NCBI GenBank assembly: GCA_031264295.1
Contig: JAISED010000024.1
Coordinates: forward strand, 1 to 52,756
Length of the DNA: 52,756 nucleotides
Source of the DNA: Eubacteriales Family XIII. Incertae Sedis bacterium
GTDB lineage: Bacteria > Bacillota > Clostridia > Peptostreptococcales > Anaerovoracaceae
Reading direction: 5' to 3'
Part shown: piece after piece, positions 39,743 through 52,304 of the stretch
Numbering within the stretch: position 1 is the first letter of the stretch
Layout: the number at the start of each line of letters is the position of its first letter
Translations under genes and position numbers: made by a program
Notes under the pieces: generated by a model
What the model was told of the DNA's origin: nothing
Databases searched by the model: none
What the model saw: only the letters and a program-made list of their open reading frames with translations

Positions 39743-40657
39743 TTATAAAAGTTTAATCTTTACCTTATTCCAGAAATCGTAATTTGAAAGCCTGAGAAGT
39801 TGAACCGTGCTTCCCGAAAATCCGACGTGAATATGCGCGACCGACGAGTACATTTTCTCTATCCCGTCGGCGGCTATGAGTATGTCTTTCTTCTTCGTAT
39901 ATTCGGGGAATATGTTTACCGACATGTGCGGCGGCAACAATATGCCCGATGTGAATGAACGGTACGACGAGTTGTTTATCGGCGCTATGGGCGTCACCTG
40001 CAGAAGATCCAGTCTGGGATCCACTATACTGCCGCCCAAAGCATAATTATACGCCGTACTGCCCGCCGGAGTAGCCACCACAACGCCGTCGCCGCGGAAA
40101 GTCTCGACAAAGCTCTCCCCTATGTAGATATTCAGAGATGCTACATGGGAATGCGCGCCGCGTATGACGATTTCATTCAGCCCCATCACATACGAAGTCT
40201 TGTTATCCGCGCAGACATTATCCATGCGGGCATTATCCGCACAAGCATTATCCATGCGGGCATTATCCGCGCAAGCATTATCCATGCGGGTATTATCCGC
40301 CCAGTCATTCTCTGCGCAGACGATCTCCGCGCTTACCGTTTTAAGCCGCTGTATCTTATAGTCCCCGCTCTGATAAAGCGATATGAATTCATCCATTTCA
40401 TGCGGCTGCAGATCCTGAAAGAAGCCCAGATGTCCCGTATTAACGCCTATTATCGGTATTTCCGGGAATTCCAAACTCGCCAAGCTGTTCAGCAAGGCGC
40501 CGTCTCCCCCGATGCATACCAAAAGCTCCGCTTCCGGATCGAAGCCGCCGGGCACGGAAAACCCCGCGGCCTCAAGCCTATGCTTGAACCGCTCCTCAAT
40601 CTGAGCGGAATCGGGGTTATCATTTTTAAAAATATTTACAATTCTGCTTTTTTTCAT
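39743..40657 (-). CDS. nadK: NAD kinase with an internal repeat insertion
   Basis: A 304-residue ATP-NAD kinase that makes NADP. The GGDG motif is in LLVCIGGDGALLNSLAS (near residue 50), followed by GVNTGHLGFF, MGLNEIVIRG, FRGDGVVVATPAGSTAYNYA, and the C-terminal DILIAADGIE. The enzyme is about 30-40 residues longer than usual because of a repeat at residues ~116-152. It is built from ADNARMDNAC units and lies between the N-terminal domain and the MGLNE strand. No good ribosome site precedes ATG 40657; only AATAAAG is present. Confidence 0.92.
   Translation of the reverse strand: MKKSRIVNIFKNDNPDSAQIEERFKHRLEAAGFSVPGGFDPEAELLVCIGGDGALLNSLASLEFPEIPIIGVNTGHLGFFQDLQPHEMDEFISLYQSGDYKIQRLKTVSAEIVCAENDWADNTRMDNACADNARMDNACADNARMDNVCADNKTSYVMGLNEIVIRGAHSHVASLNIYIGESFVETFRGDGVVVATPAGSTAYNYALGGSIVDPRLDLLQVTPIAPINNSSYRSFTSGILLPPHMSVNIFPEYTKKKDILIAADGIEKMYSSVAHIHVGFSGSTVQLLRLSNYDFWNKVKIKLL
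40202..40310 (-). repeat. 30-bp minisatellite inside nadK
   Basis: About three and a half units of 30 bases recur, each containing CATTATCCATGCGGG and ATTATCCGC and differing by one or two bases. The frame is kept, so the protein gains 10 residues per unit. The opposite strand also stays open and reads as HAGIIRASI repeats, which is a shadow. Confidence 0.88.
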
Positions 40658-44448: not shown

Positions 44449-47400
44449 TTATGGCGTTACCACAACTACCGCGCTGGCGGACAAATTACTCCCGTCAGTT
44501 GTTACTACTCGCAGGAGCGCCGTTCCAGACCGCTTTAAGGTGATCAGACCGCTGTCGTTAACCGTGAATATCCCAGGATTGCTGGATTCATACCTGAGTG
44601 TGCCGGCATCAGCGTCAGTAGTAACATTCGCCTGCACTGTCTTGTTTTTCAGTGAAGCGGACACACGCACCGCATTTAGCTTCAATTCATTCGCCGGCGT
44701 CGGGGTCTTATACACAAAGGTATCGGAAACGCCGCGGCTGTTAAGTTCGGTTGTAGCCGATGAGTCGCCGACAGTCAATGTAAAGACCGTGCCTGGCGCG
44801 ACAGTCCAGAGAGCGTCGATATCAGTCGCGTAGACTATTGGGCTGTCAAGATCGTTGTCGGGGTTGCCGTCATTGAAATACTGAAGGTCGCGTTTACCTA
44901 TGGTCAAGCTGACGACTTCGGACTCACCCGGCTGCAGGAGCTTTGTCTTGGCGTAGGCCTTCAGCTCGCGCACAGGGCGGCCTTCCGCCTGATAGCTGTC
45001 AGCTCCGAGGTAGAGCTGAACCACCTCTTGACCCGCAACGGCGCCGGTATTCTTGACCGTAACCGAGGCGGTCAAGGTTTCGCTGTCCGAACTTGTCGTA
45101 AATATCTTCTTGTTTAAGCTCAGATTGCTGAAGCTGAACGTCGTGTAAGAAAGTCCGTAGCCGAATGGGTAAGCCACGCGATCCTCCTTGCCGAATGTCG
45201 TAAAGTAGCGGTAGCCTACGTAGACGCCTTCGTCGTAGTATTCCGGATCGGACGACCACGTATTGCCCGCATGAGCCGCTTTGGCCATCGCTATGGACGG
45301 GCTGTCGTTGTATTCAAGCGGGAAGGACTGGGCGAGCTTGCCGGACGGGTTAACATCGCCCGTCAGTATGTCCAGAAGCGCGTTGCCTCCTTCGGTGCCG
45401 GGCAACCATGTTACAAGAACCGCATCCGCGCTAGCCTTGAACGCCTGAACGTTTATCGAAGCCCCGCAGTTGATCAGCACGATGACCGGTTTGCCAACCG
45501 CGTGGAAAGCAGCTACAAGTGCGTTATAGCTTGCGGTCTCATATGCATACATGTCAAACGAGGCCTGCGTATTATCCGCGCCTTCTGACGACGGACGCGA
45601 TATGACATACACGCCGTAATCCGAGGCAGCGGCCAGTTCCGCCGCTTTAGCGGACGTTATAGCCACGCCGGGCGTCACTACATCATCAACTACCGTGTAA
45701 CCGGCGTTCTCGAAACCTGCCTTAAAGTCTACGGTATAACCGGGAGCGAATGTGACGTTGGCACTGCCTCCGCCTTCGACGATCATGTCGCCGTATGACG
45801 ACCCGCCGCCTATGCTCATTCCGCCGCCTTCAAATAACGAAGTATTGACGATCGCAACCTTCTTGGCCGCAGCCAGAGGAAGCGTATTCGCCTCGTTTTT
45901 AAGCAGCACCATAGCCTCCGCCGCCGTCTCACGGTTTACAGTCACGGAATCCTTGTACACCTGAGACGACTTGTCCGCGAATCCGCTGGACAAGGCTGCG
46001 ACGTCGGCTGACGTCAATGTCGCGAAGTCGCCTTTAAACGTATGCGTCTTGACGATGCCCTTAAGAATATTGGTGACGTTGCGATCGATCAGAGCAACTT
46101 TTTCGTCATATGTCAGCTCGGTCGAGTTATCGTTCACCCATGCCGTGATGCCCGCTGTCGCAAACGAGGGTTCCGCCAAGTCGTTCTGGGAGATCACCCA
46201 ACTCTCGGCGGGATCATGAGCGCCGCCCCAGTCGGTCATTACAAATCCTGTAAATCCGAAGTCGTCGCGGAGCACCTTTGTAAGGAGCCATGTATTGGCT
46301 GAGGCGTAAATGCCGTTAGGTCTATTATATGAACTCATCACAGACCACGGATCTCCTATGTCGACAGCCAGTTCGAAGCCGCGCAGATAGATCTCGCGCA
46401 AGGCGCGCTCCGAAATATATTGTACGCCGCCGCTGCGATACTGTTCCTGATTATTCGCGGCGTAGTGCTTCAACGTCGCGCCGACGCCTCGTTCCTGAAG
46501 AGCCTGTGTGTAATAGCCCGCAGTTATTCCGGATACATAGGGATCTTCGGAATAATACTCAAAGTCGCGGCCGCCCAGGGGGTTGCGCTGGATATTCAGA
46601 GCCGGTCCGAGCATGTAGTCAGCGCCGTAAGCGGTGGCTTCAGCACCTACACGATCGGCTATCGCCTTTGCGGCCTCAATGTTCCACGTAGCCGCTATGC
46701 CGGTCGGATTCGTCCAAACCGTCGCGTTGGAACCCATGCGTACGCCGGTCGGACCATCCGACAAGCCTATACCGGGGATTCCATATGCAGGCAGAGGAAG
46801 CGTCGCCCCGGCTACGCCGGTGTTCGCGAGTCCTGCTACAGCCGTACCGACGCCGCTCAGTATGTCGATCTTGTCGGCGAGATACATCTCGGAAACGACC
46901 TGCGGGACATTAGTCGCGCTTAGCTTGACAAGGCCTGCTTTGCTTGTGTACCAGTACAGAGCCGTCAAGGGATATACGCTGCCTTCTATCTCCACATCAG
47001 CGTAAACTTGAATAACCGTCGCTTTATCAACGCCGGGATCGGGAATCGCGATGCCTGTTCCGAGTATGTACGCGCCGTCGTTAACCGCCGCCGTTATCGT
47101 GACAGCTGTATCCGCAAGCCGCCCGTTGCTCGCGTCACGCGTTTCCACTTTATAGAAAGCGCCTCTAAGATCGTCGTTATAGTTTACATCATTAAGGATT
47201 GCGCTTACGCTCAACGGATAGTCTTCCGCCGGGTTAAGCCCCGAATCCTTTGACGCTGTCAACGCAAGCGTACTGGCGAGTACGCCGACGACTGCGCTGT
47301 ATTCATTCTTCGACACGTCATAAGCTACGACTTTGACGTAGCACGTCGAAGGTATGGGGATCGACGGCGCCATCACAAAACCAAAGGTGCCCCAGGTCAT

Positions 47401-49221
47401 CACAGTAGCCTGAACAAAAGGACTGGCGGATGTAGGATCGCTTCCGTCGGTTGTGTAATAGAATCTATAGTTGTCAGCACTGGCTTGATCGCTGATAAGT
47501 CCCGCCGGTCCTCCGAATCCCGCTACATATGGAGCGCCGATCGAAACTGTATATCCTGCGGGGCCTCCAAATCCGCCGCCCATGCCGAATGAAAGCTCAG
47601 GCGCGGGAACGCCTCCGACGCGTACAGCCGCAGCTTTGGCTTGGTTCTTTATGGATTCCACACTGTTAACTACAGACGTTACCAAGTATGTGTGATCGCC
47701 GTCCGTCACCGAAGAAATCCCAAATGTCGTAACGTCGCCCGCTACACTGCCGCGGGATTCATAGGTAGTGTTAAAAAGGCCATACGCGCCGGAACCCGGA
47801 AACATCTCAGTTTGTATGCCTTCATAAATATTATAGCCTGTCGCTCCGCTAATACTTGACCAAGACAAGCTAACAGCGGCGCCGTTTGCATTAGCAGTGA
47901 CGACCGGAGAGGCAGCCTGTGCGGTCGCCGCGTCGTCGTCATAGTCGCCGTCCACGCCGAACAGCCATTCCATTACATCGCCTTCGTTACGGAGTACATG
48001 CACCCAAGACCAATGACCTTGATAATCGTTGCCGTCAATCAGGTTGTTCTCGTATTCGGTGTAGTGAAGATCCGTAGCGCCCGCATCGATCAGACGGTTA
48101 ACGCCTTCGCGCACCGAGTCGGGATTCACCGTTCCGTCGTTAGTCGCCTGGAACACCCAGATCGGAATGTCCTTAATCAAAGCCGCTTCCGCAGCCGTCG
48201 GCGTATACGCCGGGCATATCGGGAAGGCGCCCGCAAACTGCACGGCGCCGGCGGCGGACTTCGAATATATTATCTGAGCATAGGTTTGACCGCCGCCCAT
48301 CGAACATCCGGCGACATATATATTGCCTGCGTCGATCAAAGGATTTGCGGCGATGATCTCTTTAAGCATCGCGTCGATCTTCGCGCAATCTTCCCGAGCG
48401 CTCGCCCAGTCCCAGCTGCTGTATGCCTGCGGCGCTACTACAAAAGCGTCAAGCGCAGGATTATCCGCTGCGGCCTCTACCCAACCGACGCCGCCTTTGT
48501 TGGCCAGTATCTGCGTTTCACCGTTATAACCGGCAGCCGTACCGTTGCCGCCCTCGCCCATACCATGAAGCCACAGTACAAGCGGCAATTTACCTTCGCT
48601 GGTTGTTTCGGGTTCATAGAACTGATACTTAAGGCCGTTTGCGGCTGTCTTTGATTCAAACCCGGCGTTGTTGGTCGGGATAATGCTGCTCACGGTGTTG
48701 AGCGACCAATCTGATGACGCGCTGCCGCCGCTGACTGTGACAGCTGCGCTTTGAGCCACGCTGAAGCCGTCCAGCACAACCGTGTTGCGTGCGTTCATGA
48801 TGTCGGTCAATGGACCGTATACCAACATGCCGTTGCCTTTATTATATCCATAGTCAAGTTCCAGAATTATATACCGCCCATTCACTCCGGCGCCGCCAAT
48901 CTCAGCCGACGTCGATGCGTAAGCCTTTATGACAGTCAACGGGGTCGTTGTCGGCTGCCCCATGAAATCGGTAGAACCGACACTGACAGAAAACTTACCG
49001 GTTGTGACGCTGTCAGTGCTTACGACAGCGCCCTCGCCGAAATCAAGAGCCACGCCGATCGCGTCGTACCCGTAGTCCGTCACTTCCCCAAATAGTTGAA
49101 ACGTCCCCGCGCCATCATCTGCGGCGAAGACTGAAAATCCGGACAGACCGGACAGAACCGAAACACACATGAGCACGCTCAACATCGAAGCAGTTACACG
49201 CGCCCTTAGCCTTTTCCTCAT
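44449..49221 (-). CDS. Secreted multidomain esterase-GH3 glycosidase fusion
   Basis: A 1590-residue exported enzyme. ATG 49221 has GGAGG at 8 bases and a signal peptide ending near FAADDG. Domain order is: an Ig-like N-terminal domain (35-165); an alpha/beta-hydrolase esterase (190-420) with oxyanion strand LPLVLWLHGMGEGG, Ser307 in YVAGCSMGGGQ, Asp near 362 and His near 403-408; an Fn3-like domain (440-535); a chitobiase C-terminal-like domain (540-650, YYTTDGSDPT); a beta-rich domain (650-770); GH3 N-terminal barrel (775-1100) with LKHYAANNQE and nucleophile Asp997 in GFVMTDWGG; GH3 C-terminal domain with probable acid/base Glu in SRPSSEGADN; an Fn3-like GH3 tail (EVVQLYLGADS); and a BIG2-like C-terminus. 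It should de-esterify and hydrolyse beta-glucosides or xylosides outside the cell. No SLH, sortase or dockerin anchor is seen. Confidence 0.9.
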   Translation of the reverse strand: MRKRLRARVTASMLSVLMCVSVLSGLSGFSVFAADDGAGTFQLFGEVTDYGYDAIGVALDFGEGAVVSTDSVTTGKFSVSVGSTDFMGQPTTTPLTVIKAYASTSAEIGGAGVNGRYIILELDYGYNKGNGMLVYGPLTDIMNARNTVVLDGFSVAQSAAVTVSGGSASSDWSLNTVSSIIPTNNAGFESKTAANGLKYQFYEPETTSEGKLPLVLWLHGMGEGGNGTAAGYNGETQILANKGGVGWVEAAADNPALDAFVVAPQAYSSWDWASAREDCAKIDAMLKEIIAANPLIDAGNIYVAGCSMGGGQTYAQIIYSKSAAGAVQFAGAFPICPAYTPTAAEAALIKDIPIWVFQATNDGTVNPDSVREGVNRLIDAGATDLHYTEYENNLIDGNDYQGHWSWVHVLRNEGDVMEWLFGVDGDYDDDAATAQAASPVVTANANGAAVSLSWSSISGATGYNIYEGIQTEMFPGSGAYGLFNTTYESRGSVAGDVTTFGISSVTDGDHTYLVTSVVNSVESIKNQAKAAAVRVGGVPAPELSFGMGGGFGGPAGYTVSIGAPYVAGFGGPAGLISDQASADNYRFYYTTDGSDPTSASPFVQATVMTWGTFGFVMAPSIPIPSTCYVKVVAYDVSKNEYSAVVGVLASTLALTASKDSGLNPAEDYPLSVSAILNDVNYNDDLRGAFYKVETRDASNGRLADTAVTITAAVNDGAYILGTGIAIPDPGVDKATVIQVYADVEIEGSVYPLTALYWYTSKAGLVKLSATNVPQVVSEMYLADKIDILSGVGTAVAGLANTGVAGATLPLPAYGIPGIGLSDGPTGVRMGSNATVWTNPTGIAATWNIEAAKAIADRVGAEATAYGADYMLGPALNIQRNPLGGRDFEYYSEDPYVSGITAGYYTQALQERGVGATLKHYAANNQEQYRSGGVQYISERALREIYLRGFELAVDIGDPWSVMSSYNRPNGIYASANTWLLTKVLRDDFGFTGFVMTDWGGAHDPAESWVISQNDLAEPSFATAGITAWVNDNSTELTYDEKVALIDRNVTNILKGIVKTHTFKGDFATLTSADVAALSSGFADKSSQVYKDSVTVNRETAAEAMVLLKNEANTLPLAAAKKVAIVNTSLFEGGGMSIGGGSSYGDMIVEGGGSANVTFAPGYTVDFKAGFENAGYTVVDDVVTPGVAITSAKAAELAAASDYGVYVISRPSSEGADNTQASFDMYAYETASYNALVAAFHAVGKPVIVLINCGASINVQAFKASADAVLVTWLPGTEGGNALLDILTGDVNPSGKLAQSFPLEYNDSPSIAMAKAAHAGNTWSSDPEYYDEGVYVGYRYFTTFGKEDRVAYPFGYGLSYTTFSFSNLSLNKKIFTTSSDSETLTASVTVKNTGAVAGQEVVQLYLGADSYQAEGRPVRELKAYAKTKLLQPGESEVVSLTIGKRDLQYFNDGNPDNDLDSPIVYATDIDALWTVAPGTVFTLTVGDSSATTELNSRGVSDTFVYKTPTPANELKLNAVRVSASLKNKTVQANVTTDADAGTLRYESSNPGIFTVNDSGLITLKRSGTALLRVVTTDGSNLSASAVVVVTP

Positions 49222-49345
49222 ACAATATTCCTCCATTTCCTTTCGGGCGATTCCATCTAAAATCACCCGATTTCGGCGCTTCATGCGCCGCGTTCAGTAA
49301 AGGTATCCGATACAAGTTCGTTGATAAATGGTAATGCAAAGGACG
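49222..49345. other. Spacer between the GH3 fusion and the RpiR gene
   Basis: This holds the ribosome site of the GH3 gene (GGAGG near 49230) and an AT-rich stretch. I see no clear -35/-10 pair for the 4.8-kb gene, and no other gene. With the 49346-49390 terminator and its flank, the gap to the next stop codon is about 270 bases. Confidence 0.35.
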
Positions 49346-49488: not shown

Positions 49489-50271
49489 TCATTGTGACGC
49501 GGAGGTATAGCGGACGACCAGACTTTCTATAATAAATGAGAACAAATAATCAGGCGGGGTGTTCATTACGTCAAAGCTCAGATTAAAATCAGCGCTTTCG
49601 GATATCGGCAGGTTTCTATCATCGACGCAAATAGCGGTTGACGCTCCCCTTGCTCTTATAGGATCCAAAAGCTCGCCGAACATCGTATTTATATGCCACG
49701 CCGAACCGCATAGCAGTACCGTGCTTTTTGCGCCTGCCTTTTCCAGATACTTGCGCTGCTCCGCAAAGAATAACGGTGCGCTTACAAACATGCCGGATGT
49801 GCTGAGCGTCGCTTGCAATAACAGCAGAGAAGACAGTTGAACGCTGGAACAAATCAACAACTCGTCAGTATCATTTCGAAGATGTTCTACAAATCGATCT
49901 ATCTCCGAAAAACCAAATGTATTGACCAGACTATTGATCGAGTCTATAATGGCGCCGGACATGATTTCAGGGTATGCGTGCAGAACGCCCTCAGAGCGAA
50001 AATGTAAATTTGTCTGCGATTTGTATATAAAAGTGAATTCCCGATACGATGTGAAAATTTGATTCTTCATATGTTGAAATGAGCTATATCCAAGTCCCTT
50101 CCAGAATCTCTTGACGGAAGGCTCCGACGTATTAGATAACATGCTCAAATCCGATACATGAAAGTCAAGCAGATTATCGACATTATCTAAGATAGCTTTA
50201 CTAATGCTGCGCTCCACGCTATTTACGGGGCAGCTATTATAAAAAGAAAGAAACGCAAAATAACCCATCAT
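49489..50271 (-). CDS. RpiR/MurR-family transcriptional regulator
   Basis: A 260-residue regulator. The N-terminal RpiR helix-turn-helix contains SKAILDNVDNLLDFHVSDLS and SNTSEPSVKRFWKGLGYSSF (about residues 22-70). The C-terminal SIS-like sugar-phosphate-binding part has TDELLICSSVQLSSLLLLQA and ARGASTAICVDDRNLPISES, somewhat diverged from the family. Such regulators sense a sugar phosphate and usually repress nearby catabolic genes. GAGGTG lies 8 bases before ATG 50271. It is divergent from the lyxose isomerase and upstream of the GH3 fusion, with a palindromic operator at its own promoter. Confidence 0.85.
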   Translation of the reverse strand: MMGYFAFLSFYNSCPVNSVERSISKAILDNVDNLLDFHVSDLSMLSNTSEPSVKRFWKGLGYSSFQHMKNQIFTSYREFTFIYKSQTNLHFRSEGVLHAYPEIMSGAIIDSINSLVNTFGFSEIDRFVEHLRNDTDELLICSSVQLSSLLLLQATLSTSGMFVSAPLFFAEQRKYLEKAGAKSTVLLCGSAWHINTMFGELLDPIRARGASTAICVDDRNLPISESADFNLSFDVMNTPPDYLFSFIIESLVVRYTSASQ

Positions 50272-50322
50272 AATAACATCACCTCTTGTTGGAGACTTTT
50301 ATTTTGACAACGCGCTCGGATT

Positions 50323-50368
50323 TCATTTATTCCGCTATTTATTCCGCTTGTGTTAGCGGAATAAATGA
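50323..50368. promoter_or_regulatory. Palindromic operator with 15-bp arms at the RpiR promoter
   Basis: TCATTTATTCCGCTA (50323-50337) and TAGCGGAATAAATGA (50354-50368) are perfect inverted repeats, 16 bases apart. The spacer holds a third, direct half-site TTTATTCCGCT (50338-50348). The array starts right after the -10 box of the regulator, so a bound protein would block its transcription. Confidence 0.7.
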
Positions 50369-50369
50369 T

Positions 50370-50399
50370 AGTATTTTAATGCGGATTAGTATGACAAAA
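50370..50399 (-). promoter_or_regulatory. Promoter of the RpiR regulator gene
   Basis: On the minus strand TTGTCA (50399-50394) and TACTAT (50375-50370) are spaced by 18 bases. The operator covers the transcription start. Confidence 0.5.
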
Positions 50400-50505
50400 T
50401 TATATCAGATAGGCAGATCAATTACAAAATAATTCTTTAAAATAAAGGAATTTGAAATAAAGGAATTACTCTATGTTCCATGTCAATCACATTCGATTAA
50501 TTTGA

Positions 50506-50533
50506 TTGACAAGCTCTCTTTTTTTGATATAGT
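50506..50533 (+). promoter_or_regulatory. Promoter of the lyxose isomerase gene
   Basis: TTGACA (50506-50511) and TATAGT (50528-50533) are spaced by 16 bases. The leader to ATG 50570 is about 30 bases and contains GGAGG. Confidence 0.6.
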
Positions 50534-50569
50534 TATCTCATAGGTTCGAATGAAATGGAGGTAATTATT

Positions 50570-51250
50570 ATGAAACGTTCGCAGATCAACGCCGCAATCC
50601 GGCGCATGGAGGGCTTGCTGTCTAAGTATTCGTTTTCGCTGCCGTCCTTCTGCAACTGGACTCCGGATGATTGGAAAAGCAAGGGACATGAGTACGACGA
50701 GATCCGCGCCGCCATGCTTGGCTGGGATATCACGGATTATGGGGAGGAACGGTTCGATGAAATGGGCTTCACCCTGATCACCCTTCGCAACGGTCTTTCC
50801 GGCAGTGAAAAGTACAATAAGCCCTATGCGGAAAAGCTACTGATGGTGGAGGACGGACAGTATGCGCCCATGCATTTTCACTGGAATAAAATGGAGGATA
50901 TCATCAATAGAGGCGGCGGCAACGTGCTTATACGGGTTTACAACTCCACCTCCGAAGGCGGCTTCGACAGCGACCGTGTGAAGGTGCTGTCTGACGGGCG
51001 GGAATACTTTGTGGCGCCGGGTACGCAGGTGCGGCTTTCCCCCGGCGAAAGCATCAGCATCTATCCGCGCCTTTACCACGATTTTGAGGTGGAAGCGGGA
51101 TCCGGCGCCGTTTTGCTGGGTGAAGTTTCCATGTGCAACGACGACAAGAACGACAACCGCTTTTACGAAAAGCTTGGCCGCTTCCCCGCTATAGAGGAAG
51201 ACGCAGCGCCTTACCGCCTGCTCTGCACCGAGTATCCGCAAGCACGTTGA
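50570..51250 (+). CDS. D-lyxose isomerase (YdaE-type cupin)
   Basis: A 226-residue cupin-fold aldose-ketose isomerase of the D-lyxose ketol-isomerase family. The metal ligands are His and His in APMHFHWNKMEDIINRG, the Glu in the same motif, and the later His in YPRLYHDFEVEAG. The family converts D-lyxose to D-xylulose and D-mannose to D-fructose. GGAGG lies 8 bases before ATG 50570; an upstream in-frame start has no site. Next downstream is a PfkB-type kinase, which could phosphorylate the ketose product. The divergent RpiR regulator probably controls the pair. Confidence 0.88.
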   Translation: MKRSQINAAIRRMEGLLSKYSFSLPSFCNWTPDDWKSKGHEYDEIRAAMLGWDITDYGEERFDEMGFTLITLRNGLSGSEKYNKPYAEKLLMVEDGQYAPMHFHWNKMEDIINRGGGNVLIRVYNSTSEGGFDSDRVKVLSDGREYFVAPGTQVRLSPGESISIYPRLYHDFEVEAGSGAVLLGEVSMCNDDKNDNRFYEKLGRFPAIEEDAAPYRLLCTEYPQAR

Positions 51251-51335
51251 GTCGGCGCGGCATGGATTGATTGAAAAAATCAGAGAGCGGCGAAGTCTCA
51301 TTACGCTGCGGAAAGGATATATAAAAGGATATATT

Positions 51336-52304
51336 ATGAAAACAAATGAAACTTATGACTTGGTTGCCCTGGGTGAAGCCCTCGTAGATTTCACGGAAGC
51401 CGGGATGAGCGAAAACGGGCGCCGCCTCTTCGAGCAGAACCCCGGCGGAGGTCCTGTTAACGTTCTGAGTGCGGTGGCTAGATTGGGAGGCAAAACAGCC
51501 TTCATAGGCAAGGTGGGCAGCGATATGCACGGCCTTTTCCTGAAGACCTCACTGCAAGACGTCGGCGTCTACACAGGGGGCATGATTCTGAGCGACGACG
51601 TGTTCACCACTCTGGCCTTCGTGGCGCTGACCGACGGTGAGCGGGAGTTTTCATTCGCCCGCAAGCCCGGCGCCGACACCTGTCTCACCGAGTCCGAAAC
51701 AGACACCGCCCTCCTGGAAAACTGCGAGATCTTCCACTTCAGCTCTCTGTCACTGACCGATGAGCCGGTTCGCTCCGCCACCTACGCGGCTATACAGCGG
51801 GCAAAGAACGCCGGCGCCATCATCTCCTACGATCCCAACTATCGCGCCAGCCTCTGGTCAAGCCAGGACGAAGCAGTCCGGCGCATACGCAAACTCTTGG
51901 CTCAAGCGGATATACTTAAGGTTTCGGACGAAGAAGCAGAGTTGCTGAGCGGCATAGCCGATCCGGAAAGCGCCGCCCTTGCGCTGTGCCGCGAAGGCGC
52001 CCGTATCGTAGTCGTGACCCTTGGCAAGCACGGCGCCCTGGTATGCGTCGGCGGACATTGCCGCCGAATCCCCGGTTTTGAAGCACAAGTCGTGGACTCC
52101 ACCGGCGCAGGCGACGCCTTCTGGGGCGGCTTCATCTATCAGTTGTTGCACACGGAACAGTCCAAGCGATTTGACCCGGACGCCGCCGCCGATTTCGCTC
52201 GCTTCGGCAATGCGGTCGCTGCGATCTGCGTTTCCCGGCGCGGCGGCATGCCCGCCATGCCATCATTGGAAGAAGTGGAAACCTTGATACGGAACCGAGA
52301 ATGA
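51336..52304 (+). CDS. PfkB-family carbohydrate kinase, probably fructokinase
   Basis: A 322-residue ribokinase-fold kinase. The N-terminal sugar-binding region has VALGEALVDFTEAG and EQNPGGGPVNVLSAVARLGG (the GG loop), then FIGKVGSDMHGLFL. The catalytic Asp is in VVDSTGAGDAFWGGF (near residue 256), with the ATP loop VVVTLGKHGAL. Overall it is closest to bacterial fructokinases, but PfkB kinases vary in substrate. AAAGGA lies 6 bases before ATG 51336. It starts 85 bases after the isomerase and is likely in the same transcript. It would feed fructose-6-phosphate or xylulose-5-phosphate into central metabolism. Confidence 0.88.
   Translation: MKTNETYDLVALGEALVDFTEAGMSENGRRLFEQNPGGGPVNVLSAVARLGGKTAFIGKVGSDMHGLFLKTSLQDVGVYTGGMILSDDVFTTLAFVALTDGEREFSFARKPGADTCLTESETDTALLENCEIFHFSSLSLTDEPVRSATYAAIQRAKNAGAIISYDPNYRASLWSSQDEAVRRIRKLLAQADILKVSDEEAELLSGIADPESAALALCREGARIVVVTLGKHGALVCVGGHCRRIPGFEAQVVDSTGAGDAFWGGFIYQLLHTEQSKRFDPDAAADFARFGNAVAAICVSRRGGMPAMPSLEEVETLIRNRE

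Follow-up and report, generated by a model that had tools for sequence, protein, structure and literature searches.

An exported esterase–GH3 fusion protein ending in a genus-restricted Ig-like module, probably a C-terminal targeting tag

Introduction

For lignocellulose digestion it matters in practice how gut Clostridia that degrade fibre keep their exoenzymes near. Modules at the C-terminus of secreted proteins offer several points of comparison. The C-terminal domain of type IX secretion, an outer-membrane system of the Bacteroidota, is common to many unrelated cargo proteins. In Ruminococcus albus, to go by the title of a 2008 study by Ezer, enzymes are reportedly attached to the surface of the cell by the CBM37 module. 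In R. albus 7 the module is carried by 64 proteins, according to an excerpt of PMC4300822, and the SLH modules of the glycoside hydrolases of Paenibacillus sp. JDR-2 are thought, in an excerpt of PMC4765114, to place these multimodular enzymes on the cell.

Here we describe a fusion of an esterase and a GH3 glycosidase that ends in a compact tail of about 85 residues. The gene lies in a stretch of 52,756 nucleotides (the window; contig JAISED010000024.1 of assembly GCA_031264295.1, a bacterium of the Anaerovoracaceae). The tail can be compared with each of the systems above. Like CBM37, as far as the excerpt describes it, it is confined to one lineage and sits there on dozens of secreted enzymes that degrade fibre, and CBM37 may for this purpose be taken as its nearest working model; however, Pfam listed no CBM37 on the tail, and whereas CBM37 reportedly attaches to cells, the tail would do so only on our reading. 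SLH repeats occupy the same position in homologues of the fusion, but the tail is a single Ig-like module where the SLH-tagged glycoside hydrolases have repeats. With the C-terminal domains of type IX secretion it shares the terminal position on many unrelated proteins, by which no homology is implied, and its host, unlike theirs, belongs to the Bacillota. The tail would add to the lineage-specific C-terminal targeting modules, a known class, while the fusion is one further multi-catalytic carbohydrate-active enzyme, large but by itself ordinary. No description of the tail module was found in the open-access (PMC) literature, and a text search gave no match in the text of PMC11481507 that was searched and GH3 passages alone in that of PMC9137090. 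Found on dozens of unrelated exported proteins, such a tail would be a new enzyme-display handle.

The fusion gene and its surroundings

The features of the gene, with residue numbers of the encoded protein, are as follows.

44449 to 49221, minus strand: esterase–GH3 fusion gene, a single open reading frame of 1590 aa
49230 to 49234, minus strand: Shine-Dalgarno-like GGAGG, read from the sequence, 8 bases upstream of the ATG at 49221
49123 to 49221, minus strand: Sec-type signal peptide, residues 1-33, a hydrophobic stretch with cleavage after ...SVFA judged by eye
48718 to 49086, minus strand: EstA_Ig_like N-terminal domain, residues 46-168 (Pfam PF18435, E 2.8e-12)
47962 to 48669, minus strand: alpha/beta-hydrolase esterase, about residues 185-420, with Ser307 (GCSMGG), Asp362 and His403 placed by alignment to PDB 3doh
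47302 to 47475, minus strand: chitobiase-like spacer, residues 583-640 (Pfam CHB_HEX_C_1)
44869 to 46908, minus strand: GH3 module, residues 772-1451, with Asp997 and Glu1213 placed by alignment to PDB 2x40 and 2x42
44758 to 45027, minus strand: Fn3-like GH3 tail, residues 1399-1488 (Pfam PF14310)
44452 to 44706, minus strand: C-terminal Ig-like (Big_2-related) tail module, residues 1506-1590, up to the last residue before the stop, from sequence and a predicted all-beta fold
49489 to 50271, minus strand: gene of an RpiR-type regulator (Pfam HTH_6), directly upstream of the fusion gene

A preliminary description of this DNA, made from the letters alone, had proposed a single exported polypeptide of 1590 residues, and this is borne out by one uninterrupted minus-strand frame (44449-49221) that holds no internal stop codon; a plus-strand reading of the same stretch is broken by many stops. 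The first ATG of the frame is at 49284 (frame 49284 to 44449) and would give 1611 aa, 21 residues more than the ATG at 49221. Export is supported by the hydrophobicity of the signal peptide. As to the spacers described between the two catalytic halves, the chitobiase-like one is there, overlapped by an Fn3_assoc match, whereas no fn3 domain was listed in Pfam at E<=0.1 between it and the esterase; the sole Fn3-like match of the protein is the tail of the GH3 module. The Ig-like module at about 1506-1590 had been missed.

The RpiR-type regulator is, from its position, a possible regulator of the fusion gene. It belongs to a stretch beside that gene (49489-52304) which also encodes a divergent D-lyxose isomerase and a PfkB sugar kinase. 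A conserved operon was considered; none of the neighbours of the fusion gene (RpiR, D-lyxose isomerase, PfkB, MurI-like, PepF-like, the last label assigned by eye, and a 173-aa protein) had a tblastn match at 1e-5 in the related loci L041, L043, L045, L046 and L047, the flanks of the last three being short. Elsewhere in the window, at 39743-40657 on the minus strand, an ORF that looks by eye like NAD kinase contains a repeated stretch (DNARMDNACA...) inside its coding region.

The two catalytic halves

The esterase half combines the EstA_Ig_like domain with a Ser-Asp-His alpha/beta hydrolase, and is on both counts an EstA-like esterase. Its best solved structure is 3doh (residues 74-421, E 1.7e-27), a chain listed as "esterase" and, we take it, of Thermotoga origin. 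When the half is aligned on its own (E 2.6e-28), Ser307, Asp362 and His403 pair with the Ser, Asp and His of the 3doh chain, as would be expected of the Ser-His-Asp esterase first described, and the three residues are invariant in the related loci L041 and L043. The Abhydrolase_2 match at residues 213-375 (E 2.2e-4, 21.6 bits) falls just below the 23-bit cut-off. The likeness to 3doh extends over both the Ig-like N-domain and the hydrolase; however, this 380-aa chain aligns to the esterase half alone and its substrate class is not transferable to the fusion. Neither Pfam nor NCBIfam listed a feruloyl or acetyl-xylan esterase family match for this half.

The second half is a full GH3 glycosidase with its tail, just as the preliminary description had it: GH3_N lies at 821-1000 and GH3_C at 1104-1337 (Pfam), followed by the Fn3-like domain, and both catalytic residues are present. 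The best solved structure over 772-1451 is the beta-glucosidase 2x40 (E 5e-125), a 721-aa chain that conserves the nucleophile and acid/base positions but aligns to this half of the fusion alone. Asp997, which from knowledge of the GH3 family we take to be the nucleophile, faces an Asp in 2x40 and an Ala in 2x42; Glu1213, presumably the acid/base, sits in a conserved S-x-EG-x-D stretch. The score of the module is far under every listed NCBIfam equivalog cut-off (the best, NF041610, gives 407 bits against 1300), and therefore no specificity within GH3, and no sugar, can be named.

Taken together, de-acylation followed by exo-cleavage is a plausible activity of the fusion. Exported by Sec, the protein would use its N-terminal serine esterase to remove ester groups, possibly acyl or feruloyl, from an oligosaccharide of plant origin. 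Its GH3 half, acting as a retaining exo-glycosidase through Asp997 and Glu1213, would then release the terminal sugar.

The fusion in related genomes

Scanning the contigs of GTDB-r220 gave 48 loci, nine of which (L041-L049) were read. The entire domain order recurs in one ORF in L041 (46% over residues 3-1512) and again in L043 (45% over 8-1510), where it is followed by a second GH3 half. These two loci come from different bins and separate contigs of one sample, Nc350, so that one metagenome stands behind the recurrence. L042, L044 and L045 resemble the second half of the fusion at about 64%, with contig ends cutting L042 and L044, and L046 is a locus of the congener G001 (L173 sits within it in reverse complement). 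An assembly join or frameshift between the esterase and the GH3 was considered and rejected on the recurrence of the order in L041 and L043, in that one metagenome. The check thus found neither such an artefact nor a missing catalytic residue, and the esterase–GH3 fusion is confirmed as genuine.

An excerpt of PMC11707648 identifies the MAG codes Gx485 (L044, L048, L049) and Nm470 (L045) as termite samples, of Glyptotermes and Neotermes. We infer that Nc350, Ct408 and the source of the window are termite guts too.

The tail at the end of exported proteins

The genus is represented by two genomes, that of the window (2.79 Mb in 88 contigs, 86% complete) and G001 (71%). When the whole protein was searched against its own genome, the last 85 or so residues were seen to recur widely, and the 89-residue tail alone found 35 places at E<=1. 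Thirty of these places had loci and were read first; in every one of the 30 a stop follows the match after 0-2 residues. An HMM built from 30 copies was run on the ORFs of the window and of 36 fetched stretches of the same genome. The strong matches (i-E<1e-17) comprise 33 ORFs, 30 of them being the seeds of the HMM, and all 33 end 0-2 residues from the stop; six further matches that do not overlap these are weaker (i-E 2e-6 to 0.0085) and have 22-1121 residues between them and the stop. Two of the 35 places fall outside the 33 ORFs; both are internal matches of low significance (E 0.007 and 0.036). The same holds for G001, where 28 of 28 strong matches, 27 of them distinct (an identical piece occurs on two contig ends), end 0-1 residues from the stop; besides its terminal copy, one ORF there (L178) contains internal ones, of which the strongest scores 2e-11. 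Since the fetched stretches were chosen for holding matches, these figures test the position of the tail and not its frequency.

An Arg is invariant across the 33 aligned copies. The tail of the fusion has its closest counterparts in a GH95 protein (73%) and in another GH3 protein (72%). Apart from the tail and a short stretch preceding it, the GH95 protein does not resemble the fusion, and the module has therefore moved between genes.

A signal-peptide-like N-terminus was recognised in 32 of the 33 ORFs by hydrophobicity and inspection, the exception being an ORF of 88 aa. The Pfam scan, which covered 31 of the 33 (the 3079-aa and 88-aa ORFs were left out), listed GH3 nine times, GH43 three times, GH95 twice, GH67, GH10, tandem GH78, GH106 and a GH2-type domain, and further a triple EstA esterase, peptidases M28 and C69 and a metallo-beta-lactamase-fold protein; several ORFs had no catalytic match. 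No SLH or dockerin match was listed in these 31.

Some of the architectures found in this genome deserve mention in their own right. One exported ORF of 1355 aa (L113 1798-5862, plus strand; C80) has three tandem EstA_Ig_like esterase units before its terminal tail module, another protein (L114 1596-5831; C72) is a permuted GH3, with the C-terminal domain before the N-terminal one, CBM6-type matches and the tail, and an exported protein of 3164 aa (L097 1232-10723; C24) joins two GH78-type rhamnosidase units to the tail.

So exact a C-terminal position, with Pro as last residue in 43 of 61 copies, is what one would look for in a sorting signal recognised and processed by some unknown export or anchoring machine, comparable to type IX secretion. 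Against this, sortase matches number 0 in the genome of the window and 1 in G001, no conserved cleavage motif was noticed by eye before the module, and type IX secretion is not expected in a lineage of the Bacillota. We consider a processed signal of this kind very improbable. As to sortase substrates, the tail of the fusion ends in ...VVVVTP with no hydrophobic-basic end.

Fold and chemistry of the tail

The tail is predicted to be all-beta, its last strand ending one residue short of the C-terminus (pLDDT 70.2, from a two-sequence alignment). In a Foldseek search the neighbours of the predicted structure were Big_2 domains, namely those of intimin, of a glucanase fragment and of S-layer and phage tail proteins. 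The best PDB matches of the tail profile are teneurin-like proteins (several weak repeats), after which come a nucleoporin, a phage protein and intimin. Against Pfam PF02368 (Big_2), with its cut-off of 22.8 bits, several tails fall short, among them that of the fusion (14.9 bits); many sister copies are above. The similarity to Big_2, as in the Big_2-CBM56 of BglH (PDB 7quz), is distant in both sequence and fold, and the tail set differs in its invariant Arg (33 aligned copies) and its terminal position.

The net charge of the tail averages +1.4, compared with -4.1 per 85 aa in the rest of the same proteins, and would fit binding to an anionic polymer. However, 46 internal Big_2-type controls average -1.5 with a standard deviation of 6.1, and the tail is not clearly more positive than these, which leaves charge a weak candidate for the binding principle.

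Could the tail instead bind carbohydrate and so fix the enzymes to plant fibre, or perhaps to fibre and cell alike as CBM37 of Ruminococcus albus? Many of the tagged proteins are polysaccharide-degrading enzymes, the Big_2 part of a glucanase fragment (Big_2-CBM56) is among the matches by fold and by sequence, and CBM37, in the excerpt of PMC4300822, is found on 64 proteins of R. albus 7. But the tail has no conserved Trp (any W occurs in 11 of 59 copies) and no Cys, it is found also on two peptidases and the metallo-beta-lactamase-fold protein, and no CBM family matched it in the Pfam scans. Such a fibre-binding role appears rather unlikely to us.

The tail outside the genus

A search of 41 genomes of relatives, 39 of them outside the genus, gave matches at E<=1e-6 in 15 outside genomes, the best at 6e-11; one of these, G018, has ten. 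At the level of the class, 4 of 391 genomes had a single match apiece, at 1e-13 to 1e-15, and at that of the phylum (398 genomes) no other genome reached 1e-15, with at most 13 candidates scored per genome in both searches. The 26 outside-genus loci that were read are 22 of the 29 matches of the relatives search (the other 7 are from G018) and all 4 class matches. In these the tail matches are internal, except for one 88-aa ORF of G026 that is present in three overlapping loci; in addition, L130 (G015) ends with a degenerate Big_2-like strand (i-E 0.21). On account of these two cases, Big_2-type domains at the terminus are not peculiar to the genus. What is restricted to it, among the genomes sampled, is the family of strong terminal matches in many copies.

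Exchange with other anchors and the proposed role

The genome of the window has 135 SLH-repeat, 8 dockerin and 5 cohesin matches at 86% completeness, and G001 has 85, 3 and 1. Sixteen ORFs of the former match the GH3 part of the fusion: nine end in the tail, four have SLH in the C-terminal region, two end in a dockerin and one, of 1734 aa on C24, has none of the three. The closest paralogue (on C36, 43% over 539-1507) has SLH where the fusion has its tail. In the relatives, Cu_amine_oxidN1 follows residue ~1510 in L041 and SLH in L042, before the contig end; the ends of L043 and L045 look SLH-like by eye and were not matched by Pfam SLH, and L046 has at its end the tail that the fusion carries.

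It is on this exchange that the claim of release into the medium, made earlier for want of a visible anchor, has to be judged. Pfam listed neither SLH repeats nor a dockerin in the window protein, and, with no sortase-type signal either, the fusion could be a freely released exoenzyme whose terminal module binds no partner and serves as a spacer or a stabilising cap. Big_2 Ig domains often serve as plain passive spacers, the fold of the tail matches generic Big_2 and Ig domains, and a terminal domain of this type occurs also in the G026 ORF. What speaks against a spacer is the terminal placement of the module in 33 ORFs of one genome and 28 of the other, whose remaining domains are unrelated, its replacement by SLH, Cu_amine_oxidN1 or a dockerin in homologues, and the existence of small proteins made of little but tail; we find this reading doubtful. 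The step from a missing anchor to free secretion was rejected, and release is not supported, because the terminal module is common to 33 ORFs and its place is taken by SLH or Cu_amine_oxidN1 in relatives and in the closest paralogue.

Terminal position and swapping with SLH and dockerin argue for targeting by the tail, though they do not demonstrate it. We suggest that the tail is probably a genus-restricted C-terminal targeting tag which, beside SLH and dockerin, would retain proteins at the surface. For the fusion itself we lean, by a modest preference, towards an exported esterase and GH3 enzyme that this tag retains on the cell surface or within a cell-bound assembly. The Ig-like tail would bind a wall polymer or a surface receptor and so keep the fusion in a cell-bound place, and the unrelated exported proteins with the same terminal module would be held likewise, in parallel to those with SLH and dockerin tags. 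As the tail swaps with SLH, dockerin or Cu-amine-oxidase-N1 modules, the question of anchoring reduces to one small testable domain.

The dockerin side of this repertoire includes two GH3 proteins of the same genome that end in dockerins (L122 1474-4737 and 6726-10574; C40), with cohesin matches on C5 and C7. The dockerin GH3 proteins and the five cohesin matches perhaps form a small cellulosome-like system beside SLH anchoring. It is a more tentative suggestion, for which we would give slightly less than even chances, that the tail, together with a surface receptor or wall ligand specific to it, is a third enzyme-display system beside these two.

A second module of about 82 residues directly precedes the tail in 9 ORFs of G000 and 8 of G001 in the fetched stretches. 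Nine small secreted proteins (4 and 5) consist of this second module (...WLGGxxYYVALNG) and the tail, with no enzyme domain listed in those that were scanned:

L105 5217-5828, L103 1032-1619, L101 1348-2145 and L102 1061-1837: small two-module proteins
L160, L164, L166, L168 and L170 (G001): small two-module proteins

These may be structural partners or fillers of the tail display system. A receptor with SLH repeats encoded next to tail genes was considered as well: at one locus per genome, a stand-alone SLH-repeat protein with a signal peptide is encoded directly downstream of a tail gene (L109 6074-6745, and L155 from 1256).
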